Assembly: GCA_016182785.1 (NCBI GenBank)
Contig: JACPFU010000023.1
Span: 248,001 to 312,000 of the forward strand
Direction of reading: 5' to 3'
Length of the DNA stretch: 64,000 nucleotides
Origin: Lysobacterales bacterium
GTDB taxonomy: Bacteria; Pseudomonadota; Gammaproteobacteria; Xanthomonadales; Ahniellaceae
The translations under genes were made by a program, and so were the position numbers. Below the pieces are notes generated by a model. The model was not told the origin of the DNA and did not search any database. It was given only the letters and a program-made list of their open reading frames with translations. Below are positions 23,608 through 61,238 of this stretch, one piece after another; within the stretch, counting starts at the first letter, position 1, and each line of letters opens with the position of its first letter.

Positions 23608-26600
23608 ATGATTCCTCGCTTGCGGGTATGGATCATGAAGAACGACGCTGGCATGAACGGGCTTGGGCCATGGACGCGTCGCGGTTGCGCAGTCCTGCTC
23701 GGGCTGGCCTGGCTGGTGCTGGGCACCACTGCAACCGCAGCGAATGGCGGCCTCGCGCTCGGATTCGTTGATCACGACGGTGCCATCGACCGCATCGCGA
23801 TGACCGCGCTGGCGCAGGCACCGAATCCCGCAATCCGGGCGCAGGCGCGTTGGTCGGTGCAGGCCGACGATGCTTCCGGTCGCATGTTGTGGCGCTGGCC
23901 AGTGGCGGCGGTGCAGCAGTTCCATCGGCCGCCTGGAGCCCACGGCGAGTTCGTGCTGCAGGTGCCGGCGATCGCGCCCGGCACGCTGCTCAGCCTGCGC
24001 GACTCGCGCGAACGGCTGCTGTGGTCGGAGCGCTTCGATGCGGCAACGCTGGCTGCGGCGCAGGAGCGTCGGAGCGAGCTGGAAGCGCTTGTTGCTGCGA
24101 CCAGGCGCACGACCGCAGCGCTTGGCGCGCGGGCGCCGAAGGCTGCGCTGTCGCGGCAGTTGGCGGGCCTTGATCGCCAGCGCTTCGTCGAGGCGAAGGG
24201 CGAGGCCAAGGCTGGAACCGAGGCAGGGTCGCAGCCGACGGAAGTGGCGCTGCCATCGTCCCGACTCGGTGCACTTGCGGAATTCGCGGCGCCGCGCGCG
24301 TCCGATTCGGTCGATCCCGAGCTCGCCGCCAGCGTGGGTGGTGCAGCGATCACCGGCACGGTGCCGGTCCGCGTGGTCGACGAGCACGGTCTGGCACCGG
24401 CCGCGCCGGTCCATGCGCACGTGTCCGTCGGCGATGATTACCTTGGCCGCGTGGATTTCGACGCCCAGGGACAGGCGCTGCTGCCATTGGTCGCCGGCGG
24501 CCACTATGCGATCAGCTTCTTTCCGCAGGCGCCGCTGGTGGCGCAGCGCTTCGAGTTCGTCTACAGCGGCGAGCCGCTGCCACCATTCGTGCTGGAGATC
24601 GGCTGGCAGCTCGACATCGAATTGCGCGGGGCCAACGGCCTGCCGCTCGAAGGCAGCCACGAGGGGACGATCTGGGGTTCCAACGGCAGCGCCTCGCGCG
24701 TGTTTCCCTCCAGCGACACGACCGTGCCCGGGTTGCTGCGCTTCGCATTGCCCAAGGATGCGCAATGGCATCACACGCTCGGTGCCGATCCCGCCGGCGA
24801 CGCATACATCGAGATCAGCTACAGCATCGGTGCACTTGACGGGCCGCGGTCGCTGACGCTGCATCTGCTCGCCGCGACCCAGCTGCCAGGCCGGATCGTG
24901 GCGGCGGATGGGGGCGACCTGCCGGGTGCGGGAGCGATCTACTGCTTCAGTGCGGCGGTTGTCGGCGGCCTGTCGTACTCCGGATCGGCGAACTTCGGCA
25001 GCGATGGCCTGTTCGGCCTGTACCTGCCGCTCGGCTTGTCGAGCTATTGCTACGTGGCCGCACCGACTCCGCTGCTTTCGGCCACGTTCACCCGCACGTT
25101 CGCGGCGGGCGACCAGGTCGGCGTGGTGTTGTTGCGCGGCGTGCCGGTGCGGTTTCACCTGCAGGACGAGCAGGGCGTGCCCATCGCTGCATCACTGGAT
25201 GGTCGCTGGGACGACGCCCCATCCGGAACCAGCGCCAGTTGCTACGCCAACCCCTGCGAGCTGCTGGCGCCGGCCGATCGCGCCGTGCGCGTGAGGTTCC
25301 GGTTCTATTCGGGCGACTATCAGGCGATGGATCTGCCGCTGCAGCAGTACCTCGCAAACAGCGAGCACGTGCTGACGGCGCGGGCGCTGCGCAGCGTCAG
25401 CGGCAGCGTGGTCAATGCCGATCCGATCGAGGAGGGGTATCTGCGCGTGCGCGTCTATGACGCCGACAACCGCTTCGTGGTGTCGAGCACGGGCCTCGAC
25501 TTCAGCTTCCGACTGCCTGGCGGGCGCTATCGATTCGAGGCCGATCCGAACGTGCCGCACTCCTTGCAAACCACGCAGTGGCTGTATCGGCCGGTGGCGA
25601 GCAGCGACTGGGTGCAGGTGCGCGCCGATACCGAATTGCCGCCGCTGCAGCTCGCGACCGAACGCGGTGCGCTGGAACTGCTGGTCGAGCATCCCTGTGC
25701 GTTCGAGAATCGTGCCGTGCGCGTGGTGTACACCGCGCCGGATGGGCGTCGTCTCGATCGGCTGCGCTATCAGCATGGAGAACTGCCGGACCTGCCGCGC
25801 CCGCCCGGGCAGTGTGCGAGCGTGCACACGTTCGGATTGCCGCCCGGGCATCACACGCTGGACGTGGCGCCGCTCGGTTGGCCGCTGCAGCGGCTCGACC
25901 TGCGCATCGCGGCCGGGCAGACGCAGCAGCGCGTGCTGGTCTTCGAGGCCGCGGGGCGCACCGCGGTCTGGCGCGGGCGGGTGCTCGACGCGCAACAGCA
26001 GCCGCAGCCGATGGTCGGCATCCTCCTCGACGACGCCGACCAGAGCACGTTGACGATGGTGGGCGTCGATGCGCAGGGACGTTTCGAGTTGCCATTCGCG
26101 CCCGGGTGGGGTGCCAAGGTGTTCGTGCCTGGCGGCGACCAGGCACCGCTCGGTGCGACGCTGCGCTTTGGCGCCAGTACCCCGGGCCCGGTGTGGCAGC
26201 TCGATCGCCTCGCGCTGACTTCGACCGTGGATGCCGGCCTGATCCGCGTCTACGGCGACGGCGATCGCCGCAAGCGCAATCTGGTCTTCATCGCCGAGGG
26301 GTACACCCAGGTTGCCGAGACCTACACCGACCGGAACGGCAACGGCCGTTGGGACGGCATCCTCTGGTACGACCTGAACCAGAGCGGCGTGCTGGAGTGG
26401 AACAGTGACCGCATCGGGTTCTACGGCGAAGTGACGGTGCCGACCGAGGGCACGGTGCCGACACTGCAGAACGAGCCGTTCGTCGACCGGAACGGCGATG
26501 GCGTGCTCAGCATCGATGACCCCGGCTTGTTCAGTGCGAACGTGCGCGCATTCCTGCGTTCGCTGCTGAGCTCGGATGTCTGGAGCGAACATCGCGACCA

Positions 26601-27288: not shown

Positions 27289-27335
27289 TCGGGCAATGAC
27301 GCCGCAGCCAGCGCGCCGAAACCGGAAACTGCTGG

Positions 27336-29395: not shown

Positions 29396-29842
29396 TCAGT
29401 TCTCGAAGCCGTCGGCGAACAGCAGCGGCGAGTCGATGACGTTGATGGTGCCGGTCATCGCGGAGTGGAACTGGCAGTTGTAGAACAGCGTCGATGGCGC
29501 GCTCACGGCGACGGTCCAGGTGATGCTGCCGACCTGCGTGCCATTGCCGACGACGCCGTCGCTGACCTGATTGCCGGTGCCGCTGCCCTGCACGGTCTTG
29601 AGCAGGAACGGATGACCGGAGGCGTTGACGTTGAAGGTATAGCTGCAGCCGCGCACGACGGTCAGGGTGGGGTCGCCGATGCCATTGATCAGGTAGTCGG
29701 AAAAGCCGCTGTTGGTGACGCTGAAGGTCGGGCCGCTGCCGGCGCTGCAGACATCGGCGGCGTGGCTCGCGAACGCAGCCAGCGCCAGCGCAAGGCCGGC
29801 GGTGACGCGGTGCGCGAAGTGATCCTGGTTGCGACGGCGCAT
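29396..29842 (-). CDS. Secreted cupredoxin-like protein with FADGFEN tail
   Basis: Small exported protein of 148 residues with a signal peptide (to about residue 29). The core is a plastocyanin/azurin-type fold. The possible type-1 copper ligands are His in 'NASGHPFLL' and the Cys-His-Met set in 'FYNCQFHSAM', near the C-terminus. It would bind copper and transfer electrons in the periplasm or outside the cell. It ends in FADGFEN, the tail shared with many secreted proteins here. Stop codons of this gene and the DUF3228 gene are separated by 6 bp (convergent). Confidence 0.75.
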   Translation of the reverse strand: MRRRNQDHFAHRVTAGLALALAAFASHAADVCSAGSGPTFSVTNSGFSDYLINGIGDPTLTVVRGCSYTFNVNASGHPFLLKTVQGSGTGNQVSDGVVGNGTQVGSITWTVAVSAPSTLFYNCQFHSAMTGTINVIDSPLLFADGFEN

Positions 29843-29945: not shown

Positions 29946-31199
29946 TCAGTCGAACCCGTCCGCGAAGATCGGATCGGGCAGGGCGCCGCCGACTTCGACC
30001 GCACCGACGTCGCAGGGTCCGGCATTGCGCAAGTAATCGCGCTGGTCGCTTGGCTCGCAGTTGGCGCCGGCGCTGTTGATCGCAGCGCTGCCGGGCTGCG
30101 GCAATAGCGTCTTGGTCGCGCCGCCGTTGCTCGCGAGGGGTCCGAGCGCGAGCGCCAGTTCGCTGACGCTGTTCTGGTTTCCGGCCGGAAAGGCGCAGGT
30201 GTTGCCAGGGCTTTCCAGGTTGCCGCTGGCGGCGATCGCCGCGCCCGCGCAAGTACCGGCGACGATGCTGTTGCGCAGCGTCACCGCCGGTGCACCGAGG
30301 AAGGCGAGTTCGGCGCTGGTCGGGTTGGCGATGTGGCGGAAGCTGACGTTGTTGATGCTGCCGCTGGTGCCGGAACCGCGGATCGACAGGCCGCTGCCCG
30401 CGCCGGTCGCGATGTTGCCGTAGAACGTGCTGTTCGCGAGCGTCATCTGGTTCACCGAGATCACCGCACCACCGCCGTCCTGCGCCGCCGTGTTCTCGGC
30501 GATCAGCGAGTTCGTGATTGTGGTCGGCGTGTTGGCGGTGTGGATGCCGCCGCCGCGGATGCCGGACTCGTTGCGCTCGATGCGCGAATGGCGCACCTCC
30601 AGCGTGCCGCCATCGATGAATACGCCGCCGCCTTCACCGCCGGCGATGTTGAAACTCAGCTCGACGTGATCGAGCAGCAACGCGGTGTCGCGCGCGTAGA
30701 TGCCGCCACCCTGGCCGCCGCTGGCAGCGTTGCCGCCGCTGATGATCGAGTCGTGGATGCGCAGTGTCGTCGGAGGGCTGGGCAGCAGCGGCGACGCCGC
30801 AATCACGCCACCCTGGCCAACGATGGTTGCGCCCAGCAGGTCCAGCTTGCGCAGGGTGATGTCGGCGTTGTGCACCAGCAGCACGCGCGCGTTCGCGACG
30901 TTCATGCGCAGTCGCGACGGCGCCGCGAGCGCGCCGACGATGGCGAACTGGCCGCTATCGATGATCAGCATGCTGTCCAGATTGCACTGTGCGACCGCGA
31001 CCAGCACGCGGTGCCCGCTGCCGATCGCGGCCTGCTGCACGGCCTCGCGCAGCGTGCACGGCTGCCCGCTTGCACAGTTGAACCCGAACGGAACATCGCC
31101 GCCATTGTTGACGACGAAGTCCGTCGCCGCCGCGCCACCGGCCAGTGCCATGCCGGGCACGATCAACCAGCGCCAGCCACCTCGCATCGCCACCCGCAT
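29946..31199 (-). CDS. Secreted right-handed beta-helix protein (CSLREA / choice-of-anchor Q) with FADGFD tail
   Basis: Exported protein of 417 residues with a signal peptide (about 1-27). Near the N-terminus 'CTLREAVQQA' is the CSLREA-type motif seen at the start of many secreted beta-helix proteins. Then come asparagine/glycine-rich repeats of parallel beta-helix coils ('IHDSIISGGNAASGGQGGGI', 'LANSTFYGNIATGAG'). The end of the helix resembles the choice-of-anchor Q domain ('GGATKTLLPQPGSAAINSAG', 'DYLRNAGPCDVGAVE'). The final residues are FADGFD. No enzymatic motif is seen; it may be an adhesin or polysaccharide-binding protein. Confidence 0.75.
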   Translation of the reverse strand: MRVAMRGGWRWLIVPGMALAGGAAATDFVVNNGGDVPFGFNCASGQPCTLREAVQQAAIGSGHRVLVAVAQCNLDSMLIIDSGQFAIVGALAAPSRLRMNVANARVLLVHNADITLRKLDLLGATIVGQGGVIAASPLLPSPPTTLRIHDSIISGGNAASGGQGGGIYARDTALLLDHVELSFNIAGGEGGGVFIDGGTLEVRHSRIERNESGIRGGGIHTANTPTTITNSLIAENTAAQDGGGAVISVNQMTLANSTFYGNIATGAGSGLSIRGSGTSGSINNVSFRHIANPTSAELAFLGAPAVTLRNSIVAGTCAGAAIAASGNLESPGNTCAFPAGNQNSVSELALALGPLASNGGATKTLLPQPGSAAINSAGANCEPSDQRDYLRNAGPCDVGAVEVGGALPDPIFADGFD

Positions 31200-33207: not shown

Positions 33208-35553
33208 TCCGGCCTCGCGCCGTTACTCGAAGCCGTTGGCGAACAGCTGGGCTTCGTCGGACGGCAGGCGCAGCAGCGTGACGCGGTAGGAGGTCTCGTT
33301 TCCAACCACGAGTTTCCGTCGCGGCGGGTCGTAGCCGATGTTCAGGGTCGGGTTGATCAGGGTCTCGAGCCCGATGATCTGGTTGACCGCTGGCACCGGT
33401 CCGGTGAGGCCGCCCGCCGGGATCATCGCGATGGCGCCGGCATCGACGATCGCACCATTGTCGAAGGCATCGCTGCGCACGGTGAAGCGCCCGTCGGGCA
33501 GGGCGTCCAGGCCGCTTGCGCCGAACTGGTCGCCAGTCTGCAGGCCGCGAAGCACCGTGCCGGCACTGAGCACACCGCTGCTCGCGTGTTCACCCGGCAG
33601 GCGGATCACTCCACCGACGTCGATGCTGCCGCCGAAATCGAAGCCGGGGGCATTCGCCAGGAAGCTGCCGTCGGCGAGAGCGGCCAAGTGGTAGCCGAGG
33701 TTGTCGGAATCGTTGGCGCCGAGCAGCGAGTTCGCGGCGCTGATCGTGCCGGACAAGCCGCTGCTGCCGGAAGCCCAGGTGACGGCGCCGAGTTCGATAC
33801 TGCCATCGGGGCTCCACGTGGGGCTGCCGACGGCGTAGTTGCCATTGCCGAGCGCCACCACCTCGGGCCCGACCGGACCGCTGCTGGTGCCGACCAGCGC
33901 GTTCGCCGCCGAGATCGGCCCGGCGCAACCGCTGTTGCCGTTGCACCAGGCGATGCTGCCGGCATTGTTGACCGGGCCGTTGTTCCAGTTCGAGCTGTGG
34001 ACGACGAAGTGGCCATTGGCGAGCGGCAGCACGTTGCCAACCCGGTCCTCGGCGCTTGATCCGACCAGCGAGTTGGTGGCGCTCACCGGTCCGGTGATGC
34101 CGGTCGTGCCGTTGCCGAAGGTCACGGCGCCGGCATTGGCGACGGCGCCGTTGTCCCAGAGCGTGCTGCTGACCGCGAAGTTGCCGTTGGCGAGTGCATC
34201 CACTCCGCTTTCGCCAACACGGTCGGCCGCGGCAGTACCGAACAGCGAGTTGGTGACGCTCACGACCCCGGAGAATGCCGCGGAGCCGTTGACCAGCGTC
34301 ACCGCGCCGGCGTCGGTAATGCCGCCGACATCGACGCGGTCGCTGGCGACGACGTAATTGCCATTGGCAAGTGCGGCCACGCCGCTACTGCCGACGGCGT
34401 CTCCGGACAATGCACCGACCAGCGAGTTGAATGGTGTGGCGGTGCCGATGCACGCGGCCGTGCCCGGGCACCAGGTGACGGCACCCACGTCGGCCACGGC
34501 GCCGTTGTCGAAGGAGGGGCTGACGATCAGGTAGTGGCCGTTGCTCAGTGCGACCAGACCGCCGGCGCCGAGCGCGCTGTTGGCGGTGCCGGCGATGCGT
34601 GCGTTGGCCGCGGTGATGGTCCCGATCAGGCCGCCGGAACCGGGGATCCGGGTCACTGCACCAACATCGACGGTTGCGCTGTCGTCCCAGTTGGGGCTGG
34701 CGATGACGGCATCACCGCTGGCGAGCGGCAGCGCTGCACCGCTGCCGACGCGGTCTTCGGCCTTGCTGCCGACCAGGGCATTCAAGGTCGAGAGGGTTCC
34801 ATTGCAGCCGCCACTGCCGCTGCACCAGGCCACGGCTCCGGCATTGGCGATCGCACCGCGGTCCCACTGCGGCGCCAGGACCAGATAGTTGCCGTTGGCC
34901 AGCGCGACCACGCTGCCGCTGAGATCGTTGCTCGTGCTGCCGACCAGCGAGTTCACGGCCGACACCGTGCCGTTGCATCCGGTCGCGGAATGGCACCAGG
35001 TGACCGCCCCGGCATCGAGCGCTGCGCCGTTCTTGAACAGCGGGCTCAAGACCACGAAATTGCCGTTGGCGAGGATGGTGACGCCGCCGCTGCCGACGGC
35101 GTCGTCTGCGCTCGCGCCGCGCAGGGTGCTGATCAAGGTTCCATCCGTCGCAAACAGGTGCACGGCGCCAGCGCCAGGGTTTGGAATCGAGGCCGAGGTG
35201 TCGCGCACCACGATGTTCCCGTTCGGCAACACGAAACTGCCATCGCCGAAGGTGTTGCTGCCTGGAGGCCGCACCAGCTCGATCTGCGCTGCCGACGCGG
35301 CCTGCGCGAGCAAGCAGGCCGTGAGCGGCATCCAGGGAACGATGCGTGTTCTTCGGTGCGGAGCGGATGCGCGTGGGCGATGCGGGGTGTTCACTGGAGG
35401 ATGCCTCGTGCAGCAGTGCGGCGGATCGGATGGCTAGACCGCGGTGATCGCGCGGACTTCACCATCGGCATACGCAGGCGAGTCCGAGAACTTTCGACGC
35501 GACGAGCGCAGGTCGCCGTGCCGTCCGTGAGCAGCTGGATGCCGGCGGGCGCG
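33175..35553. repeat. First unit of a 2379-bp tandem duplication
   Basis: The 3' end of the DUF2189 gene plus the next gene end (33175 to about 33250) occurs again at 35554-35629 with the same neighbours. The offset of 2379 bp equals the distance between the stop codons of the two 723-residue genes (33223 and 35602), so the duplication unit comprises this whole segment. The sequences have diverged mainly inside the coding repeats but the copies remain of equal length. Confidence 0.9.
33223..35394 (-). CDS. Secreted repeat protein, paralogue A, with LFANGFE tail
   Basis: Exported protein of 723 residues. After a signal peptide (to about 36) come about eleven copies of a 56-59-residue repeat. 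The core of one repeat reads 'LANGNYVVASD ... GAVTLVNG', with 'NSLVG' and 'D.VG' ends. The pattern resembles the beta-propeller type of FG-GAP-like or DUF5650-like repeats (family name from memory, not confirmed). Six Cys-containing repeats ('VTWC..', 'GC.G') suggest disulfides. The sequence ends LFANGFE, the common tail. It shares its upstream DNA pattern with its tandem copy, so both probably have related promoters. Confidence 0.8.
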   Translation of the reverse strand: MNTPHRPRASAPHRRTRIVPWMPLTACLLAQAASAAQIELVRPPGSNTFGDGSFVLPNGNIVVRDTSASIPNPGAGAVHLFATDGTLISTLRGASADDAVGSGGVTILANGNFVVLSPLFKNGAALDAGAVTWCHSATGCNGTVSAVNSLVGSTSNDLSGSVVALANGNYLVLAPQWDRGAIANAGAVAWCSGSGGCNGTLSTLNALVGSKAEDRVGSGAALPLASGDAVIASPNWDDSATVDVGAVTRIPGSGGLIGTITAANARIAGTANSALGAGGLVALSNGHYLIVSPSFDNGAVADVGAVTWCPGTAACIGTATPFNSLVGALSGDAVGSSGVAALANGNYVVASDRVDVGGITDAGAVTLVNGSAAFSGVVSVTNSLFGTAAADRVGESGVDALANGNFAVSSTLWDNGAVANAGAVTFGNGTTGITGPVSATNSLVGSSAEDRVGNVLPLANGHFVVHSSNWNNGPVNNAGSIAWCNGNSGCAGPISAANALVGTSSGPVGPEVVALGNGNYAVGSPTWSPDGSIELGAVTWASGSSGLSGTISAANSLLGANDSDNLGYHLAALADGSFLANAPGFDFGGSIDVGGVIRLPGEHASSGVLSAGTVLRGLQTGDQFGASGLDALPDGRFTVRSDAFDNGAIVDAGAIAMIPAGGLTGPVPAVNQIIGLETLINPTLNIGYDPPRRKLVVGNETSYRVTLLRLPSDEAQLFANGFE

Positions 35554-37932
35554 ACCATCGACGCCAGCGCCTGGCCGGAAGCGTGATCCGGCCTCGCGCC
35601 GTTACTCGAAGCCGTTGGCGAACAGCGGGCGCTCGTCGGGTTGCAGGCGCAGCAGCGTGACGCGGTTGTCGGGGCCGTGGCCGACCACGATCTGGCCGCG
35701 CACGGCGTCGTAGCCGTAGTACTGCGCGCTGCCCTGGTCGGGGATCAGGCCGATGACCTGGTTCGCCGCGGGCACCGGGCCGGTGAGGCCGCCGACCGGG
35801 ATCAGCGCGGTGGCGCCGGCTTCGCTGATCGCGCCGTTGTCGAAATACTCGCTCTGCACCACCAGTCGCCCGTCCGGCAATGCATCGACGTTGCTGGCCC
35901 CGAACTGGTCGCCCGCCTGCGACCCGCGCAGCGTATTCGCGCCGCTGAGCATGCCGACGCTGGCGCTGTGGCCGGGCAGCCTGAGCACCGCACCGACATC
36001 GAGCGTTGCCCCGAGATCGAAGTCGGGACTGGTGGCGACGAAGCTGCCGTCGGCGAGTTCGCGCAGGTAGCTGCCGAGGTGATCGCCGGCACTGGCGCCG
36101 ATCATCGAATTGGCGGCGCTGACGGTACCGACGCGACCGCTGGTGCCCGACGCCCAGGTGACTGCGCCGACATCGGCGCTGGCCGCGTTGTCCCACTGAG
36201 GACTGCCGACCACGTAGTTGCCGTTGGCCAGCGCCAGCACGCGAGAGCCGATCGGGCTGCCGCTGGTGCCGACCAGCGCGTTCGCCGCCGAGATCGCGCC
36301 AGTGCAGCCGCTGGTGCCACTGCACCAGGCGACGCTGCCGACGTCGGCGGCGGCGCCGTTGTCCCAGAACTGGCTGTAGACCACATAGTTGCCGTTGGCG
36401 AGCGTGTAGGCGTAGCCGACGTTGTCGTTGGCGGTGCTGCCGACCAGGGAATTCGCGACGCTGACCGGGCCAATGATGCCGCTGCTGCCGTTGCCGAAGG
36501 TGGAAGCGCCGGCATTGACGATCGCGCCGTTGTCCCAGAGCGTGCTGCGCGCGACGTAGTTGCCGTTGGCGAGCGCGCTGACGCGGTCCTCGCCGACGCG
36601 ATCCATCGCGGTGCTGCCGTGCAGCGAATTGGCGGCGCCGACGACCCCGGAGAATGCCGCGGAGCCGTTGACCAGCGTCACCGCGCCGGCATCGGTCACG
36701 CCGCCGATATCGACGCGACCGCTGGCGACGACGTAGTTGCCGTTGGCGAGTGCGGTGGCGCCGGCGCTGCCAACCGCGTCCCCGGGCAGCGCGCCGATCA
36801 GCGAATTGGCCGGCGTGACGGCACCGATGCAGGCGGAGAGGCCCGAGCACCAGGTGACGGCTCCGACGTCGGCATCGGCGCCATTGTCGAAGGAATGGCT
36901 GACGATCAGGTAATGGCCGTTGGCGAGCGCGACCAGGCCACCGGAGCCGATGCGGCTGTCGGCGGTGGTGGCCACGCGCGAGTTGGCCGCGGAAACGTTG
37001 CCGACCAGGCCGCCGCTGCCACTGATGCGAGTGACGGCACCGGTGTTGATCGCGGCACCGTTGTCCCAGAACGGGCTGGCGATCACGGCGTCGCCGTTGG
37101 CCAGCAGCAGCACCGCGCCGCTGCCGACGCTGTCGTTCGCGCTGCTGCCGACGAGCGCGTTCGCGGCGGTGAGGGTGCCGGTGCGCCCGCTGTTGCCGTT
37201 GCACCAGATCACCGCGCCGACGTTGACCAGGGCGCCGTTGTCGAAGCCGCTGCTCGCCACCAGGTAGTGGCCGTTGGCGAGCGCGATCACCTGGCCGAGC
37301 TGCTGGAAGGCACTGGTGCCGATCAGCGAGTTCGCGGCGGAGATGGTGCCGTTGCAGCCGGTGCTGGCGTGGCACCACGTCACCGCGCCGGCGTTCTCGA
37401 TCGCACCGTTGTCGAAGTAGCGACTCTCGATCACGAAATGGCCATTGGCCAGCACGCGGACGCCGAAGTTGCCGACGCTGTCGTTCGCGCTGGCACCACG
37501 CAGCGTGCTGATCAGGGTGCCGTCGGGCGCGAACAGGTGCACAGCGCCGGCGCCGGCGGCGGGGATCGATGCCTGCGAGTCACGCACCACGATGTTGCCG
37601 TTCGGCAGCACCACCACGTCATCGCCGAACGCGACGCTGCCCGCTGGCGGCGTCAGTTCGATCTGCACCGCCTGCGCCTGCAGCGCAAGCCACGACAGCG
37701 GCAACAGCAGCCAGCGCGCGATGCGGGCTGCGACGACGGGAGCGGGGAGGGTCGAGCGCTTCGGATCGTTCATCGGCGGAGGTCTCGGACAGGGGCTGGC
37801 CTTGGCATCGGTGCGGCGGTGGTCATCACGCGAGCTTCACGAACAGCATACGCCGACGCGCCGAGAATCTTTCGACGCAACAGTTCGCAACCGCCGCGCA
37901 ATCCACGACCGCCGCCGCGGTGGCACTCACTA
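35554..37932. repeat. Second unit of the 2379-bp tandem duplication
   Basis: Begins with a copy of the 3' end of the DUF2189 gene (now a nonfunctional fragment: '...GATIDASAWPEA' without a gene in front), then the second paralogue. The upstream region of both paralogues shares a diverged box, 'cttcac...gcatacgc...gagaa.tttcgacgc.ac' at about 35457-35505 and 37835-37883. This is useful for mapping the promoter of each copy. Confidence 0.88.
35602..37773 (-). CDS. Secreted repeat protein, paralogue B, with LFANGFE tail
   Basis: Second copy of the 723-residue secreted repeat protein, with the same signal peptide region, repeat number and tail LFANGFE. Same-length alignment with paralogue A is possible across the full sequence, with substitutions mainly at loops. 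Conserved parts include 'LTPPAGSVAFGDDVVVLPNG', 'SALANGNYVARSTLWDNGAI' and 'GVTDAGAVTLVNGSAAFSG'. The latter is identical in both copies, suggesting either recent duplication or gene conversion. The function is unknown; the repeats and export signal suggest a surface protein. Confidence 0.8.
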   Translation of the reverse strand: MNDPKRSTLPAPVVAARIARWLLLPLSWLALQAQAVQIELTPPAGSVAFGDDVVVLPNGNIVVRDSQASIPAAGAGAVHLFAPDGTLISTLRGASANDSVGNFGVRVLANGHFVIESRYFDNGAIENAGAVTWCHASTGCNGTISAANSLIGTSAFQQLGQVIALANGHYLVASSGFDNGALVNVGAVIWCNGNSGRTGTLTAANALVGSSANDSVGSGAVLLLANGDAVIASPFWDNGAAINTGAVTRISGSGGLVGNVSAANSRVATTADSRIGSGGLVALANGHYLIVSHSFDNGADADVGAVTWCSGLSACIGAVTPANSLIGALPGDAVGSAGATALANGNYVVASGRVDIGGVTDAGAVTLVNGSAAFSGVVGAANSLHGSTAMDRVGEDRVSALANGNYVARSTLWDNGAIVNAGASTFGNGSSGIIGPVSVANSLVGSTANDNVGYAYTLANGNYVVYSQFWDNGAAADVGSVAWCSGTSGCTGAISAANALVGTSGSPIGSRVLALANGNYVVGSPQWDNAASADVGAVTWASGTSGRVGTVSAANSMIGASAGDHLGSYLRELADGSFVATSPDFDLGATLDVGAVLRLPGHSASVGMLSGANTLRGSQAGDQFGASNVDALPDGRLVVQSEYFDNGAISEAGATALIPVGGLTGPVPAANQVIGLIPDQGSAQYYGYDAVRGQIVVGHGPDNRVTLLRLQPDERPLFANGFE

Positions 37933-41169: not shown

Positions 41170-42039
41170 ATGCGAATGTGTTTTCGCGTCGCCGCAGCAA
41201 ATCTATTCGCGATCTGTGTGCTGTGCAGCGGGTCTGGCGCGTCCATCGCTCAAGCCGTCGGCGTCACCAACGGCAACACCCGCCTAGCCTTCGGCAGTCC
41301 CGCTCCCATCTACGTCACCTTTGCTTCCGGAGCGACGCCGGTGGTCTCGTATTCCCTCACCGTGTCGTACATGCCGATCATGTTCGGCACGCCGACCGTG
41401 TCGATGTGCTTTGCCAACGCGAATTGCACAGTGGACGCAGGGGCCGGGACGATCAGTGTCGTCCGCACGAATCCAGTACCCATCGCACTGCAATCCGAGA
41501 ATGGATGTTTGCTCGTTTTCACGACCACTGGGTACGGCCAGATGGGCTCATTCCCGCTGGCGATCAGCAATGCGCAGGCAACCGACCCGAACGGCAATCC
41601 GGTCACGCTCGGTACCCAGGACGGCAGTATCGGCATCATCAGCGGCGGCGGCGAACCACCGCAACTGTCCTACTTGCCGCAGTTTGACGCCGACTGCGCG
41701 ACCGACCCGGTTGCCGAAGTGCACTTTGCGGATGCGCCGGATCCCACGAATGCGGAGATCAATCTCGCGGTCACGCCGGGCAGCCCGTCGGCGGAGCCGG
41801 TGCTGCTGGCGTGCACGGCGCCATCGGGTATCAGCATCGTCTCTGGCGGCAACCAAATGCTGCAGGGTGCTGCGATCGCCAACCCGATTGCCCTGCGTTG
41901 CGATACCTCGTCGCCGCAGACCCGAACTCTGATCTGCACCGAAACCACGTCCAACGGACGCTGGTTCCGACACTGGGACCTCGCCTGCGCTGGACCGCTG
42001 TTCATCGACGGATTCGAGGGTGGTACTGCCCAGCCCTGA
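41170..42039 (+). CDS. Secreted cohesin-like protein with FIDGFE tail
   Basis: Exported protein of 289 residues with a signal peptide (to about 29, ending ASIAQA). The segment between about 35 and 160 resembles a cohesin domain: 'VSYSLTVSYMPIMFG', 'PLAISNAQATDPNGNPVTLG' and 'TQDGSIGI'. A second half with several cysteines has no clear family. The C-terminus reads LFIDGFEGGTAQP, i.e. the shared tail with a few residues after it. Its base composition is lower in GC than the neighbours, suggesting recent acquisition. It lies between the DUF6498 fragment and the intact DUF6498 gene. Confidence 0.7.
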   Translation: MRMCFRVAAANLFAICVLCSGSGASIAQAVGVTNGNTRLAFGSPAPIYVTFASGATPVVSYSLTVSYMPIMFGTPTVSMCFANANCTVDAGAGTISVVRTNPVPIALQSENGCLLVFTTTGYGQMGSFPLAISNAQATDPNGNPVTLGTQDGSIGIISGGGEPPQLSYLPQFDADCATDPVAEVHFADAPDPTNAEINLAVTPGSPSAEPVLLACTAPSGISIVSGGNQMLQGAAIANPIALRCDTSSPQTRTLICTETTSNGRWFRHWDLACAGPLFIDGFEGGTAQP

Positions 42040-44649: not shown

Positions 44650-47211
44650 ATGTCGAAGCGGATGGGGTGCCTGTTTGGTGTGATGGCGGGTCTGGCGACG
44701 GCGGCCTCGGCTGCGACCGTGCACCACGACCGCTTCCATGCAACCAGCGCGGAACTGGCCTGGGGCAACCAGCGCGGCAACTGGGTCGTGGTCAATGGCG
44801 AATACGCAGCCGCGTCGCCGAGCAACGCGCCGCTGACCGCGAGCCTGTTGCCGTGGCATGCCGGTGACTTCGAGTTCGCGGTCGACCTGATCGACCCGGT
44901 CGACGGTGGGCTGTGGGTGCGCGCCGATGCCGACGCCCAGCGCGGCGTGGTGCTGGTGGTCAAGAGCAACCAGATGTACTGGCACGTGATCAGCAGCCCG
45001 AGCAGCGGGCCGTGGACGGTGCACGCGCCGGTGACGGTCAGTTTCCCCTCGGGCCGCGCGCGCATCCGCGTGGTCGGCAGCGGTGCCTTGCTGCGCGCCT
45101 ACATCGACGACGCCGCGCTGCCGGCGACTACGCTCGACCTCGGCAGCGTGAGCGTGCCGCCGGGCAGCAACTACCTCGGCGGCCGCGTCGGGTTCTACGA
45201 CTACAGCGCCAGCGGCACGCGCTTCGACAACGTGCGCTTCGCATTCGAGCCGGTGCCGGAGGCTGCCGCCGGCTGGTGGCGTGGCGAGCAGGATGCCGAC
45301 GATGCGATCGGCAGCGCCGATGGCACCCTGGTCGGCGCCGTGGCGTTTGCCGCCGGCAAGGCCGGAACCGGGTTCCGTTTCCCGGACAACGGCAACCACC
45401 ATGTTGCGATCGCGGACGGCACCACCACCGACCTTCCGGCGCAATTCGCACTCGAAGCCTGGGTGCGGCCGCGCGCGGGACTGGCCAATCCGGGCAATGC
45501 CTGGGGCGTGTTCTCGAAGGTGGGGCCGCCGTGGGTCGGCGGGATTTCGTACCAGCTCGCGCTGTCTCCGGCGGCCCCGGACGACGCCAGTGCGACCGCG
45601 CAGTTCCGCGCCGACGCCGACCCGTGGCCGGCGAATCCGCTCGCTGGCGGGCTGGTCGACGTCGGCATCTGGAGTCATCTGCTGTGGCGTTACGACGGCA
45701 GCCAGTCGCGGCTGCACGTCGACGGCCGCGAGGTTTCCAGTGTCGCCGCCGCGGGCGTGCTGGCCGCGAACGTGGCGACGCCGCTGTACCTGAACTGCGA
45801 TGGTGACGGGGCAGTCTGCGCGCCGCTCGATCTGGACGAAGCCGTGCTCTATCACCGCGCGCCGAGCGCCGCCGAAGTGCAGGCGCGCCACGAAGCACTG
45901 GCGCATGCCGAGGTCGCGTTGCCGTATCGGCAGGACCTCGCCGGAACGCTCGACGCGGCCTGGGGCGTGCGCAATCGCCAGGCGCCGACACCGCAGTTCC
46001 AGCCGGATGGCGCGCTGCGCCTGTGGACCACGCCCACCGACCTGTATGGCGCCAGCAACAACCTCGCCAACCTGCCATTGCTGCGCCTGCCGGACGGCGA
46101 AGACGCCTGGGCGCTGACCGCGGCGTTTCGCTTCGACGCACCGCCGTCGGCGCAGTGGCAGCAGGCCGGCGTGCTGGTGCTCGACCGCCGCGACGGCGTG
46201 CCCGATCCGGACAACTACCTGCGGCTCGGCTACGTCTACGAGCCGGTGCCGCGCTTCGAGGCGGTCTACGACCTGGGCGGCACGCCGAATGCAGACCTGC
46301 CGAACGGCCCGCTCCTCGATGTTCCCGCCGCGACACCGTACTGGCTGCGACTGCGCCGCCATGGCGGCAGCTTCGTGCTCGGCTACAGCCTCGACGGCGA
46401 GCGCTTCGACGACTTCCGCAGCCTCGACCTGCCGCTGCTGCCGCGCTATGCCGGCGTGTTCGCGCTGCACGGACCGAGCGCGGCCCCCGCGTTGCCGTTC
46501 GACCTGCTGAATCTCGACGTGTCCGCCGACTGCCTGGCCGAACCCGACGGCCTGCTCGCGCACTGGCGCGGCGCCGACATCACCGACTCCGCCGGGGGCT
46601 TGACGCTGACCGCGATGAACGGCGCCGGACACGCGCTGGCGCGGATCGGCAAGGGCTTCCAGTTCGACGGCAACGACGACCACTTCGCCCGCACCGCGAT
46701 CGCGTCACTCCCGGTCGGTGCCGCCGCGCGCACGGTGCTGCTGTGGGCGAAGACGCCGCGCGACCTGGTCAACGCCACCGAGTCGGCGCTGTTCCAGTAC
46801 GGCAGCGAGAGCGACAGCCACATGTTCGGCCTGATCACTTCCGGCAACGCGCCCGGCCGGCTGTACTTCTACGGCCACAACGCCGACCTCGCCGGCAGCA
46901 CCGTGCTGCGTCCGGACACCTGGTATCACCTCGGCGTCAGTTACGACGGCAGCAACGTCAGCGTCTACGTCGACGGCGTTGCCGAAGCCAGCGCCGCGCG
47001 CGTTCTCGACACCGTGCCGTCGGCCGAAGGCCTCAACATCGGTCGGCGCTGGCCGGCAACGCGCTGGCAGGGACTGATCGACGACGTGCAGGTGTACGCG
47101 CGCGCGCTCGATGCCGCGGAGATCGCCGCGATCCACCGCGCCGGCGGTGCCGGGCTGTGTCCGCGCGCGATCTTCGCCAACGGCTTCGAGGACGGCGCGA
47201 TCAGTCCGTAG
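44650..47211 (+). CDS. Secreted LamG/concanavalin-type protein with FANGFE tail
   Basis: Exported protein of 853 residues. Signal peptide 'SKRMGCLFGVMAGLATAASA' is followed by at least four beta-sandwich segments. Two of them look like LamG-type jelly rolls: 'GWWRGEQDADDAIGSADGTL ... LEAWVRPRAGL' and 'LAHWRGADITDSAGGL ... GVSYDGSNVSVYVDG'. These bind carbohydrates or act as adhesive modules. A Cys pair appears at the end ('CPRAIFANGFEDGAISP'), with the shared tail. Its stop overlaps the end of the ECF sigma gene by 11 bp (convergent). No catalytic site was found. Confidence 0.8.
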   Translation: MSKRMGCLFGVMAGLATAASAATVHHDRFHATSAELAWGNQRGNWVVVNGEYAAASPSNAPLTASLLPWHAGDFEFAVDLIDPVDGGLWVRADADAQRGVVLVVKSNQMYWHVISSPSSGPWTVHAPVTVSFPSGRARIRVVGSGALLRAYIDDAALPATTLDLGSVSVPPGSNYLGGRVGFYDYSASGTRFDNVRFAFEPVPEAAAGWWRGEQDADDAIGSADGTLVGAVAFAAGKAGTGFRFPDNGNHHVAIADGTTTDLPAQFALEAWVRPRAGLANPGNAWGVFSKVGPPWVGGISYQLALSPAAPDDASATAQFRADADPWPANPLAGGLVDVGIWSHLLWRYDGSQSRLHVDGREVSSVAAAGVLAANVATPLYLNCDGDGAVCAPLDLDEAVLYHRAPSAAEVQARHEALAHAEVALPYRQDLAGTLDAAWGVRNRQAPTPQFQPDGALRLWTTPTDLYGASNNLANLPLLRLPDGEDAWALTAAFRFDAPPSAQWQQAGVLVLDRRDGVPDPDNYLRLGYVYEPVPRFEAVYDLGGTPNADLPNGPLLDVPAATPYWLRLRRHGGSFVLGYSLDGERFDDFRSLDLPLLPRYAGVFALHGPSAAPALPFDLLNLDVSADCLAEPDGLLAHWRGADITDSAGGLTLTAMNGAGHALARIGKGFQFDGNDDHFARTAIASLPVGAAARTVLLWAKTPRDLVNATESALFQYGSESDSHMFGLITSGNAPGRLYFYGHNADLAGSTVLRPDTWYHLGVSYDGSNVSVYVDGVAEASAARVLDTVPSAEGLNIGRRWPATRWQGLIDDVQVYARALDAAEIAAIHRAGGAGLCPRAIFANGFEDGAISP

Positions 47212-55058: not shown

Positions 55059-55136
55059 CGGAGAACTGACTGCCGCTCGGTCAAAGATGCTCGAGCACCC
55101 GGGGGGATGGTTCCGTCCAACAGGAGGAGCCGGTCC

Positions 55137-56648
55137 ATGAACGAACTATTCGTCGTGCGTCATGCGTCTACCCACTCGCGTCCGTGCTTTGGCGGTGCGC
55201 CCTTTGAAAAGTCTCGGTCAGCTTGCACAACGGGCCGGGGAAGGCACCTGCTCCGAGCGGTACTAGTCCTCATGGCGATTGCAACCGCTTCGTCCGCGTG
55301 GGCGCAGAGCAATCTGTTTTCCTGGCAAGGCCAGCCCGGCTCGGTCGAGCATCCCAGGCCCAACATCCGCGGTGCGGAGCGTGAATGGCCCGTTGGCGTG
55401 AACATTCGCGCAGTCATGGCCAGTGAACGTGCACGATCGAGTATTCGCGTGCTCGTGCCTGGGCGTCCGCCGCTCGTCTTTCAACAACGAAATGTCGAAC
55501 CCCTCCGCGGTTTCCGCATTCTCGACAACTTCGACTATGAGCCGGATCCCGCCGTACCGGATTCCGGTCTCACTTACACCTGGTATGGCAGCTCGGGCTC
55601 GAAGCAGATGACCATGTCGGTCTACGAGGGCCGTGTTTCCGCAACCATCCAGTTTGACGATCGAGTTTTCTCAATTTCCAGCCGAGATGGTCAGCAGGTC
55701 GTGAGGCAGTTCGATCCTGGGCAAATGCTCGGCGATGCCGATGCCGGCATCGAGCCTGAAGTTGGTCCGAGTGAGATCGTCGCTCCTAAGAAGGCTACCC
55801 CGATGGTGGCATTCGCCGCGAAGTCGGCGGTGGACTTCGTGGATATCTTGGTGGTGCATACGCCAGCGGCCTTCGCATCGTTGGGCAATGACCAAGCGCA
55901 ACTCAATGCTGTCGGCAGCGAAGCGTTCCAGCAATCCGAGCAGTCGTTCTCGAATGCGGGCGTCAATACCCTCAGAGTGCGAAACGTCCTGGCCGGTAAC
56001 GCCAGCTTGTCTGAACCAGTGGACTACGATGAGGACAGCGGGTGGACGTGCGCAGGTTCTAACGCCGTGACATGCCGCTGGGTGGGGCACCGGGTGTGGT
56101 TGAGAACCGACGCCACGGTGCAGTCTCTGCGCAACACTTACGGTGCGGACCTAGTGGTCATGCTTGTTGCCGACAACGGGACAGGCGGACTGGCCTACAC
56201 CCAACGCACTGACTGCGGAACCATTACGAATTACGAAGCGACGCCCGGGTGCGCGGTGGGGGCAGCGTACGGCAACTTCGCCTATTCAGTCGTCTGGGTT
56301 GGCCAAGCCACGGTCTTTCAGATCTTCGCACATGAGACGGGACACCAGTTCGGGATGGAGCATCAAAGCGGCAGTGCAACGCCGTCGTATCCCTGGTCGT
56401 TTGCGAGGTCGCTGTCTGATGTGCAAACGATCATGGGAGTCTCGTTATTCACTCGGTCCTTGCAATACTCAAACCCGAACGTGCCCTTCATTGGTCGCAC
56501 GGAGCCTTCGGGCGAAACTTTGCGATTCAACGCGAGAACAGCCTATTGCCTGGCGCCCGTCATGTCGGGTTATCGCACCCCAGGGCAGATCTTGCGGCTG
56601 TTCTGGGACAGCTACGAGGATTGGCTAATTCCTACGAGTGGCTGCTAA
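55137..56648 (+). CDS. Secreted reprolysin-like metalloprotease (metzincin)
   Basis: Exported protease of 503 residues. The signal peptide is unusually long (to about residue 56), with a charged n-region. The catalytic zinc site 'HETGHQFGMEH' has the full HExxHxxGxxH of metzincins, and 'IMGV' can be the Met-turn. An N-terminal pro-region (about 57-235) precedes it. It ends with 'LRLFWDSYEDWLIPTSGC', in which LFWDSYE resembles a diverged form of the shared tail. Its stop overlaps the next start (TAATG), so translation is coupled. The ribosome site is strong. Confidence 0.85.
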   Translation: MNELFVVRHASTHSRPCFGGAPFEKSRSACTTGRGRHLLRAVLVLMAIATASSAWAQSNLFSWQGQPGSVEHPRPNIRGAEREWPVGVNIRAVMASERARSSIRVLVPGRPPLVFQQRNVEPLRGFRILDNFDYEPDPAVPDSGLTYTWYGSSGSKQMTMSVYEGRVSATIQFDDRVFSISSRDGQQVVRQFDPGQMLGDADAGIEPEVGPSEIVAPKKATPMVAFAAKSAVDFVDILVVHTPAAFASLGNDQAQLNAVGSEAFQQSEQSFSNAGVNTLRVRNVLAGNASLSEPVDYDEDSGWTCAGSNAVTCRWVGHRVWLRTDATVQSLRNTYGADLVVMLVADNGTGGLAYTQRTDCGTITNYEATPGCAVGAAYGNFAYSVVWVGQATVFQIFAHETGHQFGMEHQSGSATPSYPWSFARSLSDVQTIMGVSLFTRSLQYSNPNVPFIGRTEPSGETLRFNARTAYCLAPVMSGYRTPGQILRLFWDSYEDWLIPTSGC

Positions 56649-58296: not shown

Positions 58297-58343
58297 AGGC
58301 CACGCTATCGTTTCACGCGTCGCAAAGGGGAAGCAGCGGAATC

Positions 58344-61238
58344 ATGCGCGCAGGGTGCTATCGGTCGATCGGACTTCTCGCAGGACTGCTTGCGTCGTCG
58401 TGCGTGTACGCGGATGCGCTGCCCTTCTGGCGCGATGGCGAACTGATCGCGATAGCGAGCGCTGCGCCAGCGAGCGATCTTCAGCAGCGTGTGCAGGCGC
58501 TGCTGTTCCCGGAGGACGCCCTCGCCGTCGATCGATTATTGCCAGCGGGCGGTCGCGTGGCTTCGCTGCATCGCGCCGCGCCGGCGCTGGTGGTCAGGCT
58601 CGAATTGCCGCGAGCGTTTCTCGAAGGCGGGCGCGTAGATGACGCCCTGCTGGAGCGCCTGAGCACGCAACTGCAGCTCGGCCTCGAACCCTGGCCGGAG
58701 CTGCGCGAACTGCACCTGGTGGCACGCGCGATCGAAACGCCGCAGGCAAGATTCCGCGCGCTGAGCGACTACCTGCCGACGTTCGATCGGGCCAGCTTGC
58801 GCAAGGACGCCGACATCGAAGGCGTCAGCGCCGCGCCGCTGGTGCGCCGCGAGCGTGGGTTGGATCGACAGCAGGGCGCAGCCGCGCCGGCACTCGCCGG
58901 CAAGCAGATCTTCGTCAGCCAGGCGCACGGCTTCATCGACTATGACAACAGCGGTGCCTGGAGCACGCAACGCGGTATCACCCACGGCATCGTCGAGGAT
59001 TTCGTCAATGCCGAGGCGATCAACCAGTACCTGCTTCACTATCTGCGCAACGCCGGCGCGCAGCTGTTCACGCTGCGCGAGCTCGATCGCAACCCGGACC
59101 TGGTGATCGTCGACAATGCCGACGGCAGCGCGTTTCCATCCAATGGCAGCTACGTCGAAAGCGGTACAGCGGTCGCGTTCTCGAACTCCGGGCTGCAGGC
59201 ATTTCGCAATTTCCAGGCGCCGTATGCGCCGACGACGGATCCGTTTCGCAATGGCGGCTCTGATCGCCTGATCACGACCGCGGCCAACGAGACCGCGCGC
59301 GCGACCTGGACGCCGACGATTGCGGCGAGCGGCGACTACGATGTCTACGTGGCCTACACCCGCAATGGCAACCTGCGTGCGAACGATGCGCACTACATCG
59401 TGCGTCACAGCGGAGGCAGCAGTCACTTCCGCGTGAACCAGGAATTGCATGGCTGGGTCTGGGTGCACCTCGGGCGATTTCACTTCGACGCTGGACAGGA
59501 TCCGCTTCGCGCTGCAGTCGTGCTCGCGAACGATTCCTCCGAGCCGGGACAGACCGTGTCAGCCGACGCCGTGCGTTTCGGCGGCGGCATCGGCGATATC
59601 CGCGGTGAGTTCCACAGCACGCTGAGCGGGCGTCCGCGCTGGGAGGAAGGGGCGCGCTATTACACGCAGTACCAGGGCGCATCGTCGGCGGTGTATGCCG
59701 GCGGCGATGTCGGTGCACGCTCGAAGTTCGCGGCCTGGGAGAACTACCAGGGCATCGAGGACTCGCTGTACGTGTCCTGGCACTCGAACGCGTTCGATGG
59801 TTCGGCGCGCGGCACCAACAGCTACATCTACAGCGCGAACCCGCCCGACGGCAGCTACGACCCGAACCAGAGTGTGCCGGGTTCTGCGGCACTGGCGACG
59901 GCCATCCACAACGAACTGGTCGCCGACATCCGCGCGGCATGGGACCCGGCCTGGCAGGATCGTGGCCTGCGCTCCGCGTACTTCGGTGAGATCAACCCGG
60001 CCTACAACGACGAGATGCCCTCGGTGCTGCTCGAAGTCGCGTTCCACGACAACGCCAGCGATGCCGCGGCACTCGCGCATCCGCGTTTCCGCCAGTTGCT
60101 GGCGCGCGCCATCTACCAGGGCATCGTCAAGTATTTCGCGCAGCGTGATGGCATCGCCGTGAAGTTGCTGCCCGAGCCGCCGCAGGCGCCAGCGGTGCAG
60201 GTGACCGGCGCGACCAGCGCGCTGGTGAGCTGGGAAGCGCCGCCAGCAGGCGGCGTCTTCGGTGATGCCGCCACCTGTTATCGCGTCTATCGCAGCAGCG
60301 ACGGGCGCGGCTTCGACGAAGGCAGCGAAGTGCTCACGACGTCGATGACGATCAACGGCCTGGTGCCAGGGGCACTGCAATACCTGCGCGTGACTGCCTG
60401 CAACGACGGCGGAGAATCGCTGCCAACCGAGACCCTGGTCGTGCGCAGCAGTGCAGCGCCGATGCGGCGCGTGTTGCTGGTCGAAGCGTTCGATCGTCTC
60501 GATCGATCGCAGTTGATCGTCGACAACGACGCCGAACTCGGTGGCCTGGTCGATCGCATGTTCCTCGAACGCATGAATCCGCAGGACGACCTGGTCTGGT
60601 ACGGACTGGCGCTGCAAGGCCTGCCGGTGGCGATCGAATCGGCCGCCAACGAGGCGGTCGCGAACGGTCGCGTGGCCCTCGACGTGGCCGCGCATTCGGC
60701 GGTGCTGTGGGAGCTCGGCGAGGAGAGCACCGTGGATGAGACCTTCAGCAGCGTCGAGCAGGCGCGGATCAAGACCTATCTCGCGGCCGGCGGGCGCGTG
60801 CTCGCGGCCGGCGCCGAGATCGGCTGGGACCTCGACCTGCTCGGCTCGGCCGCCGATCGCGCGTTCTATAACGATGATCTTGGCGTCGACTATGTCAACG
60901 ACGATGCGACTGCGACGAACCTCGTGCAGGGCAGTGCCGCCGGCATATTCGCCGGGCTCGGCGGCATCCACTTCGAGGACGGCAGCGGCGCGCGTTACGG
61001 CGTCGACTATCCGGACGCAATCACGGCGATGCCCGGTGGCCTCGTCGCGATGCACTACAGCGGCACTGGCTTCGACGCCGCGGTCCAGCGCGACACCGGT
61101 GTCTGGCGCACGCTGACGTTCGGGTTTCCGATCGCGGCGATCAGCGATGACGCGCCGCGTGCCGAGGTGCTGCGGCGCGCGTTGATCTATTTCGGCGCCG
61201 ACGGCTTGACTACCCTCTTCAGCGACAGCTTCGAGTAG
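58344..61238 (+). CDS. Large multidomain N-acetylmuramoyl-L-alanine amidase with FSDSFE tail
   Basis: Exported protein of 964 residues. After a signal peptide (to about 24) and a pro-region comes an Amidase_3 domain that is split by an insertion. The first part (about 190-260) contains 'FVSQAHGFIDYDNSG' with a zinc His, and the second (about 460-615) contains 'YVSWHSNAFDG' and 'VLLEVAFHDN' with the remaining ligands. The insertion (about 300-430) resembles a golvesin/Xly carbohydrate-binding module ('DYDVYVAYTRNGN'). A fibronectin type III domain (about 620-705) and a putative glutamine-amidotransferase-like domain (about 710-940) follow. The tail reads LFSDSFE. It likely cuts peptidoglycan. 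Confidence 0.82.
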   Translation: MRAGCYRSIGLLAGLLASSCVYADALPFWRDGELIAIASAAPASDLQQRVQALLFPEDALAVDRLLPAGGRVASLHRAAPALVVRLELPRAFLEGGRVDDALLERLSTQLQLGLEPWPELRELHLVARAIETPQARFRALSDYLPTFDRASLRKDADIEGVSAAPLVRRERGLDRQQGAAAPALAGKQIFVSQAHGFIDYDNSGAWSTQRGITHGIVEDFVNAEAINQYLLHYLRNAGAQLFTLRELDRNPDLVIVDNADGSAFPSNGSYVESGTAVAFSNSGLQAFRNFQAPYAPTTDPFRNGGSDRLITTAANETARATWTPTIAASGDYDVYVAYTRNGNLRANDAHYIVRHSGGSSHFRVNQELHGWVWVHLGRFHFDAGQDPLRAAVVLANDSSEPGQTVSADAVRFGGGIGDIRGEFHSTLSGRPRWEEGARYYTQYQGASSAVYAGGDVGARSKFAAWENYQGIEDSLYVSWHSNAFDGSARGTNSYIYSANPPDGSYDPNQSVPGSAALATAIHNELVADIRAAWDPAWQDRGLRSAYFGEINPAYNDEMPSVLLEVAFHDNASDAAALAHPRFRQLLARAIYQGIVKYFAQRDGIAVKLLPEPPQAPAVQVTGATSALVSWEAPPAGGVFGDAATCYRVYRSSDGRGFDEGSEVLTTSMTINGLVPGALQYLRVTACNDGGESLPTETLVVRSSAAPMRRVLLVEAFDRLDRSQLIVDNDAELGGLVDRMFLERMNPQDDLVWYGLALQGLPVAIESAANEAVANGRVALDVAAHSAVLWELGEESTVDETFSSVEQARIKTYLAAGGRVLAAGAEIGWDLDLLGSAADRAFYNDDLGVDYVNDDATATNLVQGSAAGIFAGLGGIHFEDGSGARYGVDYPDAITAMPGGLVAMHYSGTGFDAAVQRDTGVWRTLTFGFPIAAISDDAPRAEVLRRALIYFGADGLTTLFSDSFE

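Follow-up and report, generated by a model that had tools for sequence, protein, structure and literature searches.

Nine genes in a window of 64 kb, the whole stretch of Lysobacterales DNA that was analysed, raise the question of why secreted proteins of differing architecture end in the same few residues, and of what those residues might do. The original prediction was a C-terminal secretion or maturation signal. The answer favoured here is that these residues, the FE tail, probably form a hitherto unrecognised tag that addresses proteins to the cell surface, because they are located where related proteins carry known surface sorting signals.

The tail in the window and its genome

Tails were found at all the stops at which they had been proposed (9/9; Table 1). 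The pattern F..[GS]F[ED] occurred nine times in the six frames of the window, in every case 0 to 6 codons before a stop (9/9), and its placement at or near the last residue was thus borne out. The nine proteins had been called unrelated; eight unrelated architectures were counted rather than nine, because the genes at 33223 and 35602 are DUF5650 paralogues. The 148-residue protein had a weak At5g54830-like match (PF25489; 19.2 bits, below the cut-off of 27). The putative metzincin does not end in LFWDSYE, as had been stated; in its final stretch, LFWDSYEDWLIPTSGC, the diverged motif lies nine residues before the end and is doubtful.

Table 1. Tailed genes of the 64-kb window and one doubtful member; positions are those of the window.
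Gene product	Position	Strand	Tail and its position	Matches and signal peptide
M64-family peptidase, secreted	23635..27288	+	LFESGFE 27265-27285	PF09471, 60.4 bits; signal peptide
148-aa secreted protein	29396..29842	-	LFADGFE + N 29422-29399	signal peptide
Choice-of-anchor Q protein, secreted	29946..31199	-	IFADGFD 29969-29949	NF041518, 53.1 bits (cut-off 25); signal peptide
DUF5650 repeat protein copy 1, secreted	33223..35331	-	LFANGFE 33246-33226	PF18888; signal peptide
DUF5650 repeat protein, paralogue of copy 1	35602..37773	-	LFANGFE 35625-35605	PF18888; hydrophobic N-terminus
Secreted protein, family unassigned	41170..42039	+	LFIDGFE then GGTAQP 41998-42036 (LFIDGFEGGTAQP)	signal peptide
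Multihaem c-type cytochrome-like, secreted	42888..44561	+	VFADSFE 44538-44558	weak multihaem matches; signal peptide
LamG-domain protein, secreted	44650..47211	+	IFANGFE then DGAISP 47170-47208 (IFANGFEDGAISP)	PF13385; signal peptide
N-acetylmuramoyl-L-alanine amidase/fn3, secreted	58344..61238	+	LFSDSFE 61215-61235	PF01520, PF00041, PF25275; signal peptide
Putative metzincin, doubtful member	55107..56648	+	diverged LFWDSYE nine residues before end (LFWDSYEDWLIPTSGC)	

The strict DNA form, F-x-x-[GS]-F-E-stop, gave 41 matches in the genome (3.80 Mb in 43 contigs) and 0 in the reversed control; 41 is an undercount, because this form does not capture GGA/GGG or TCN codons, tails ending in FD or tails with an extension. 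Chance origin was ruled out by the genome count against its control together with the six-frame count of the window. Five tailed genes lay in 205 kb of stretches picked irrespective of tails. In 419 called genes (194,580 residues), a set in which tailed genes are over-represented, the core [LIV]F.[DN][GS]F[ED] occurred 33 times and was C-terminal in 32/33; the only internal copy lay in a C25 peptidase. Among 34 tail occurrences, from the window and 30 loci of the strict genome scan, 31 distinct 21-mers were found; this codon diversity means that the tail is not a DNA repeat, as had been argued from the window.

The core of the tail is [LIV]-F-x-[DN]-[GS]-F-E, about seven residues, and the last position was E or D across 111 distinct tails. 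Aspartate was favoured three residues upstream of the first F (40% of the 111). Positions -4 to -20 held 0.3 bits or less each. The last E/D was the exact C-terminus in 92/111 tails and was followed by 1 to 12 extra residues in 19/111; one protein (L041) carried two tails in tandem. Alignment of 115 C-terminal regions (one of 116 references excluded) gave a mean column identity of 7%, and no shared sequence, such as that of a common folded domain, was found upstream of the tail. The low conservation upstream of -3 therefore indicates a free module and not the edge of one shared domain.

A membrane-like stretch within the last 40 residues was present in 3/111 tails and two or more K/R among the last eight residues in 2/111, by a measure that two of three presumed GlyGly positives passed (L266, L268) and one failed (L269). 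The lack of a hydrophobic anchor and of a basic end, by which the tail had been set apart from PEP-CTERM, IPTL and LPXTG signals, thus held with rare exceptions. Cysteine occurred within the last 12 residues in 10/111. The tail set kept 44 of 115 named stretches; those dropped were 30 in which the match ran into TGG and not a stop, 26 in frames of fewer than 80 residues and 15 longer frames of other taxa. Among these 15, the F is preceded by L, I or V in five (L055, L056, L100, L114, L125). The pattern by which the named stretches were collected fixes D at position 3 and so inflates the D frequency of the tail set. Two AlphaFold models had mean pLDDT of 47.7 and 36.0 and were left unused.

Proteins and genomes that carry the tail

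A signal peptide was predicted in 29/33 tailed and 103/344 untailed genes of the same stretches by a lax test (Fisher p approximately 7e-11), and in 25/33 and 58/344 with a stricter start rule. The predictor was a rough, home-made one, the sample was biased towards tailed genes, and the tailed genes counted were those whose N-terminus is complete. The tail was thus concentrated on exported proteins, as had been proposed, and within these limits the motif did not stand at random frequency among genes without a signal peptide. At least one of the four signal-negative tailed genes has a miscalled start (L189; compare L024).

Families were scanned over 115 tailed proteins, with 330 or fewer last residues of each, and the results below are those of the 25 commonest of 61 families and the 25 commonest of 70. 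Choice-of-anchor matches were found in 17 (Q) and 3 (J) of the tailed regions, and M36 matches of the myxosortase-dependent (8), rhombosortase-dependent (7) and T9SS-dependent (1) kinds, necessarily partial over 330 residues and in sets that may overlap. The ExeM/NucH nuclease matched in 2/115, and further matches were to beta-helices, cadherin/Ig domains, propellers, M28, M64, RoxA-like cytochromes and one C25. No Pfam or NCBIfam model of the tail was among these commonest families, and no match fell on the tail in scans of 9, 9 and 10 single proteins; no paper on the tail was found in the open-access literature searched.

The PA-domain protease of the window's genome had a match in 10 of 229 genomes of the class, its own included, and its catalytic part ends in DIGW. 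In tail-rich genomes (G000, G191, G073) DIGW is followed by an FE tail, diverged in G073, and in tail-poor relatives of the order (G032, G242) by 70 to 80 unrelated residues. Outside the order, the ends were read by us as GlyGly-CTERM-like in two gammaproteobacteria (L266, L268), as a Gly/Ser-rich segment with a basic end in L269, as dockerin- or repeat-like in L262 to L264, and as other ends in L265 and L267, with L270 open. Rhombosortase was well over cut-off in the source genome of L266 (G492), gave no match in that of L268 (G345; 88% complete) and was not over cut-off in that of L269 (G467). From this swap of ends it follows that the FE tail takes the slot of a sorting signal, and the choice-of-anchor and M36 families agree with its standing in place of known ones. 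The tail is accordingly a short module at the protein level, C-terminal on signal-peptide proteins in the window's genome, which replaces other sorting signals.

At least one strict match was found in 189 of 299 genomes of the order, single matches being at control level. Maxima per family were 53 (f1), 35 (f4), 51 (f8) and 43 (f11) strict tails; f2 and f12 were mostly at background, with the tail-rich exceptions G236 (27), G149 (15), G090 (13), G260 (11) and G280 (10), and most genera of f7 and f9 are likewise tail-less. In a scan of 369 genomes of the class, the 364 outside the order had 0 to 7 matches each, like the reversed control. The tail is thus patchy within the order, though common there, and does not rise above control level in the rest of the class. 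Among the matches listed, tailed frames of 80 to 991 residues occurred in Chiayiivirga, Dokdonella, Tahibacter, Pseudofulvimonas, Pseudomarimonas, Aquimonas and Marinicella, as well as in Lysobacterales, gammaproteobacterial and proteobacterial metagenome-assembled genomes (MAGs). The scope of Xanthomonadales that the original prediction had suggested holds as far as it goes and is incomplete, since a second class is rich in a longer form.

This long form, [LIV]F-x-DGFESG[DN]-xxx-W, measures 14 to 19 residues and ends proteins of a Thermoanaerobaculia MAG (for example IFNDGFEAGNTTAWSATVP), where DGFE[..]G[DN] gave 30 matches and the control 0; in 37 genomes of the order it was found once each in two. 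One of these two matches (L272, genome G036) ends in IFADGFESGDVSSWSMTCP, so that G036 holds the short and the long form alike. In the class of the MAG the long form was found in 61 of 147 genomes, with up to 132 per genome and one control match overall. It was read at 20 loci from six genomes, with 18 of the 30 places in G663. Of 38 distinct places, 31 reach the C-terminus no more than 20 residues after the motif begins, five continue beyond that, by 25 residues in two cases, and the last two are open at the end of the stretch. Tryptophan stood at the same place in 31/31 near-terminal copies, though the search pattern was without W, and the residue three before D was L, I, V or F in these copies. 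The long form was also found directly after the signal peptide (L282, L287) and internally (L280, L310), with about 150 more residues after it in L280.

Candidate partners and competing readings

The reading favoured on balance, from sequence patterns, is that the FE tail is a C-terminal sorting tag read by a partner at the surface or outer membrane. As for the localisation, cleavage and attachment of tailed proteins, we infer that they would leave the cytoplasm by Sec, with type II secretion as the main route through the outer membrane, and that the partner would then read the tag and hold, cut or attach the protein. Partner candidates were compared in 62 of the 299 genomes of the order, 31 with at least 9 tails and 31 with 0 or 1, a subset of the qualifying genomes. 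In the class of the Thermoanaerobaculia MAG, the panel of 80 comprised all 40 genomes with at least 12 long-form matches and 40 of the 86 with none. The co-occurrence counts from both panels ignore shared ancestry.

The C13 legumain family was considered because the Asx-Gly/Ser-Phe core of the tail suggests legumain; the substrate tail of asparaginyl ligases is, we assume, Asx-small-hydrophobic. C13 was found in 18/31 tail-rich and 16/31 tail-poor genomes and was rejected for this lack of discrimination; five genomes with 42 to 53 strict tails (G003, G008, G028, G107, G191) had no C13 match, and the C13 genes that could be read encoded a membrane protein next to methionine-salvage or histidine genes. 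Rhombosortase (TIGR03902), over cut-off in 2/31 tail-rich and 5/31 tail-poor genomes, was likewise rejected as partner.

The cysteine peptidase family C25 (gingipain/PorU family) was associated with the tail in both groups, with 20/31 tail-rich vs 2/31 tail-poor genomes in the order (p = 2e-6; one of the two weak and partial) and 38/40 tail-rich vs 17/40 tail-less genomes in the class of the MAG (p = 4e-7; 36 vs 17 at E 1e-20). No C25 match was found in 11/31 tail-rich genomes of the order, including the complete G236 (27 tails) and G090 (13 tails). A correlation of the tail with one transporter or peptidase family had been suggested as a check; these 11 genomes rule out a universal role for C25, which was rejected as sole universal partner.

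In the C25 proteins, of which 88 genes were read as a subset of those listed, the most tail-like 7-mer lay 45 to 102 residues before the catalytic domain in 27/41 from tail-rich genomes of the order, where a 7-mer of this band scored at least 10 in 17/41, and in 0/22 from tail-poor genomes, of which 3/22 held a score of 16.1 elsewhere (LFADG-x-E); the band was chosen after the data had been seen, and some genomes are near relatives. A score of 10 was reached anywhere in 5/88 shuffled controls. Of the 20 genomes with C25, four (G002, G149, G260, G280) had short-type C25 only, with the internal motif absent. In the class of the MAG the best 7-mer was in the band in 7/25, and the motif before C25 largely coincided with a native strand, [FY][VIL]D[GS][FV][DE][LV]xYxR, which also occurred in C25 proteins of tail-less genomes of that class. 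Internal motifs were initially counted in 20/66 C25 proteins, a figure then reduced because five acidobacterial matches are part of the native strand; in the other genes of the C25 loci no internal match to the strict motif was found in 124,946 residues. Three of 66 C25 proteins from tail-rich genomes had their own C-terminal tail, and the co-occurrence may therefore be that of cargo.

In sequence, then, C25 and the tail are genuinely linked, but what the link means is ambiguous: C25 could be the enzyme, co-distributed cargo or an instance of strand mimicry. PorU, the sortase of the type IX secretion system (T9SS), is a gingipain-family member (PMC7468200). A C25 cysteine peptidase acting as sortase is the best lead for a partner, and a tentative one, well short of likely; if it were the partner, other lineages would need a different one.

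The first competing reading, possible though unlikely, is that the tail stays uncut and is inserted as a beta-strand or short peptide ligand into a surface receptor, like cargo on a scaffold. The extra residues tolerated after the core (19/111), the tandem copy in L041, the occurrence of the long form inside proteins or after a signal peptide (L280, L282, L287, L310) and the similar strand beside C25 would all suit such docking, and the long form presumably resembles the opening strand of beta-sandwich modules. The exact E/D end of 92/111 tails, however, exceeds what a free docking motif would need.

That the tail itself selects substrates for type II secretion (T2SS), for example via the PDZ domain of GspC, is improbable. 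The cargo types of the tailed proteins are typical of T2SS, and GspD was over cut-off in 31/31 tail-rich and 27/31 tail-poor genomes (p = 0.056), a weak association; G019, the sole strict-tail-free genome of 33 in the tail-rich family f8, had no GspD match at all. The 27 tail-poor genomes, however, use no such tail, and the residues that follow FE in some tails speak against a PDZ domain recognising a free carboxylate. T2SS alone was rejected as explanation, being present in most genomes with or without tails.

A protective or quality-control cap, by which the tail would shield exported proteins from a periplasmic tail-specific protease or deliver them to it, would account for the C-terminal position, the acidic end and the use of one tag over many folds. 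It is nevertheless highly improbable: the tail is patchy within one order, whereas tail-specific periplasmic proteases are to our knowledge near universal, and it occupies the place of sorting signals in homologues. Scarcely credible is a neutral relic of a lost C-terminal domain with the opening strand FESGDxSxW, for which the residues after the long form in L280 could be cited, but in which neither a core fixed across synonymous codons beside linkers of varying length and sequence, nor a W kept in all near-terminal long-form copies under a pattern without W, would be expected.

If the tail is indeed a sorting tag, many exported proteins of two distant groups that now lack annotation could be approached functionally through it, and a soluble tag of seven residues, shared by dozens of secreted proteins, would represent a new route of surface addressing. 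Among Gram-negative C-terminal sorting tags, those known to us either contain a segment that spans the membrane or make up a whole folded domain. Bolder, and decidedly doubtful, is the suggestion of a new sorting system free of membrane segments, common to Lysobacterales and the class of the Thermoanaerobaculia MAG, in which soluble tails of about 7 or 14 to 19 residues, carried by dozens to more than a hundred proteins per genome, would be recognised at the cell surface by C25 peptidases or a related beta-domain, the tail mimicking the strand before the C25 catalytic domain; the enzyme would then be a second Gram-negative sortase family, independent of T9SS. Because the tail is patchy within one order, its partner should be findable by ordinary comparative genomics.

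Comparison with known sorting systems

GlyGly-CTERM, the tag of rhombosortase, is short like the FE tail and likewise stands at the C-terminus of unrelated proteins exported by Sec, among which are several T2SS substrates (PMC13393428, PMC3237569), and some protein families carry either tag. GlyGly-CTERM consists of a Gly/Ser motif, a hydrophobic stretch and a basic end, whereas nearly all FE tails are without a hydrophobic or basic part; with rhombosortase over cut-off in only 2/31 tail-rich genomes, the FE tail falls outside this system.

T9SS tags 10 to more than 100 cargo proteins per species, which a gingipain-family sortase handles, by a signal of about 80 residues (PMC7468200) that forms a beta-sandwich (PMC4804311), and is described in PMC5445135 as confined to some Bacteroidetes. 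The likeness to T9SS and PorU would lie in the C25 peptidases associated with the tail. The T9SS C-terminal domain has about 80 conserved residues, in contrast to an FE tail of about 7 or 14 to 19 residues with 0.3 bits or less at -4 to -20, and the sortase of T9SS is of the C25 family, which here was found in 20/31 tail-rich vs 2/31 tail-poor and in 38/40 tail-rich vs 17/40 tail-less genomes and was missing from 11/31 tail-rich ones of the order.

MYXO-CTERM, the tag of myxosortase, resembles the FE tail in marking dozens of proteins per genome and in the M36-type relatives that both have in common. It is tripartite with an invariant cysteine (PMC11980579); it has that cysteine and a membrane segment, whereas cysteine was found in 10/111 FE tails and membrane-like segments were rare. 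PEP-CTERM, the tag of exosortase, is likewise C-terminal and sporadic in distribution (PMC1569441). Its PEP motif, hydrophobic anchor and basic tail differ from the consensus and the ends of the FE tail. The choice-of-anchor domains of NCBIfam, which precede the tail in the 17 and 3 of 115 tailed proteins counted above, are presumably named as domains that come before an anchor, and the FE tail would then be a further, unlisted type of anchor. On the features compared, the FE tail is a member of neither GlyGly-CTERM nor T9SS, and the best-supported reading is that it would work in the manner of their cargo tags.

Variants and placement of the tail

The strict tail (F-x-x-[GS]-F-E before the stop) was missing from G019 alone among the 33 genomes of family f8; in this genome, a profile search gave no match to GspD of the type II secretion system, and the model of M36, a peptidase family represented among tailed proteins, had no match at E 1e-10. 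In one protein, two FE tails stood in tandem at a single C-terminus (FFADGFEGSDDLFSDGFE). Non-terminal copies of the long motif DGFESG[DN] occurred in sequence stretches L282, L287, L280 and L310, where, by our reading of the sequences, they lay directly behind a signal peptide, between domains, and within an Rhs-like protein.

Tailed genes and their neighbours

Both members of a neighbouring pair of DUF5650 repeat paralogues carried the tail, and downstream of the two stops the translation was identical over the 14 codons read. Small proteins of roughly 85-120 aa had F-x-LK-[SA]-T-x-A-x-C-x-PL in common directly upstream of the tail.

Coordinates of tailed and neighbouring features
Feature	Location	Context
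Putative ECF sigma factor-like gene (sequence reading)	window 47201-47782	among tailed genes
Putative serine/threonine kinase-like gene (sequence reading)	window 49732-52515	among tailed genes
DUF5650 pair	window 33223-37773	
Small protein with pre-tail motif	L180:12569-12826	
Small protein with pre-tail motif	L192:13775-14038	
Small protein with pre-tail motif	L203:13165-13527	
Tandem tails	L041:2828-3817	

Surroundings of the C13-type and C25 genes

The C13-type (legumain-type) membrane protein was about 440-540 aa long in several tail-rich genomes (at least nine strict tails) and about 345-354 aa in several tail-poor genomes (none or one), and its gene adjoined methionine-salvage or histidine genes (L211-L230). 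Another short C-terminal tail, PV[EQS]L[QLK][SE][FY]S[VI][DE], ended five small proteins (in sequence stretches L159, L161 and L163, from genomes G260, G076 and G004, respectively), whose genes shared a 20-kb stretch with that of a short-type peptidase of the C25 (gingipain/PorU) family, a candidate partner family of the FE tail.
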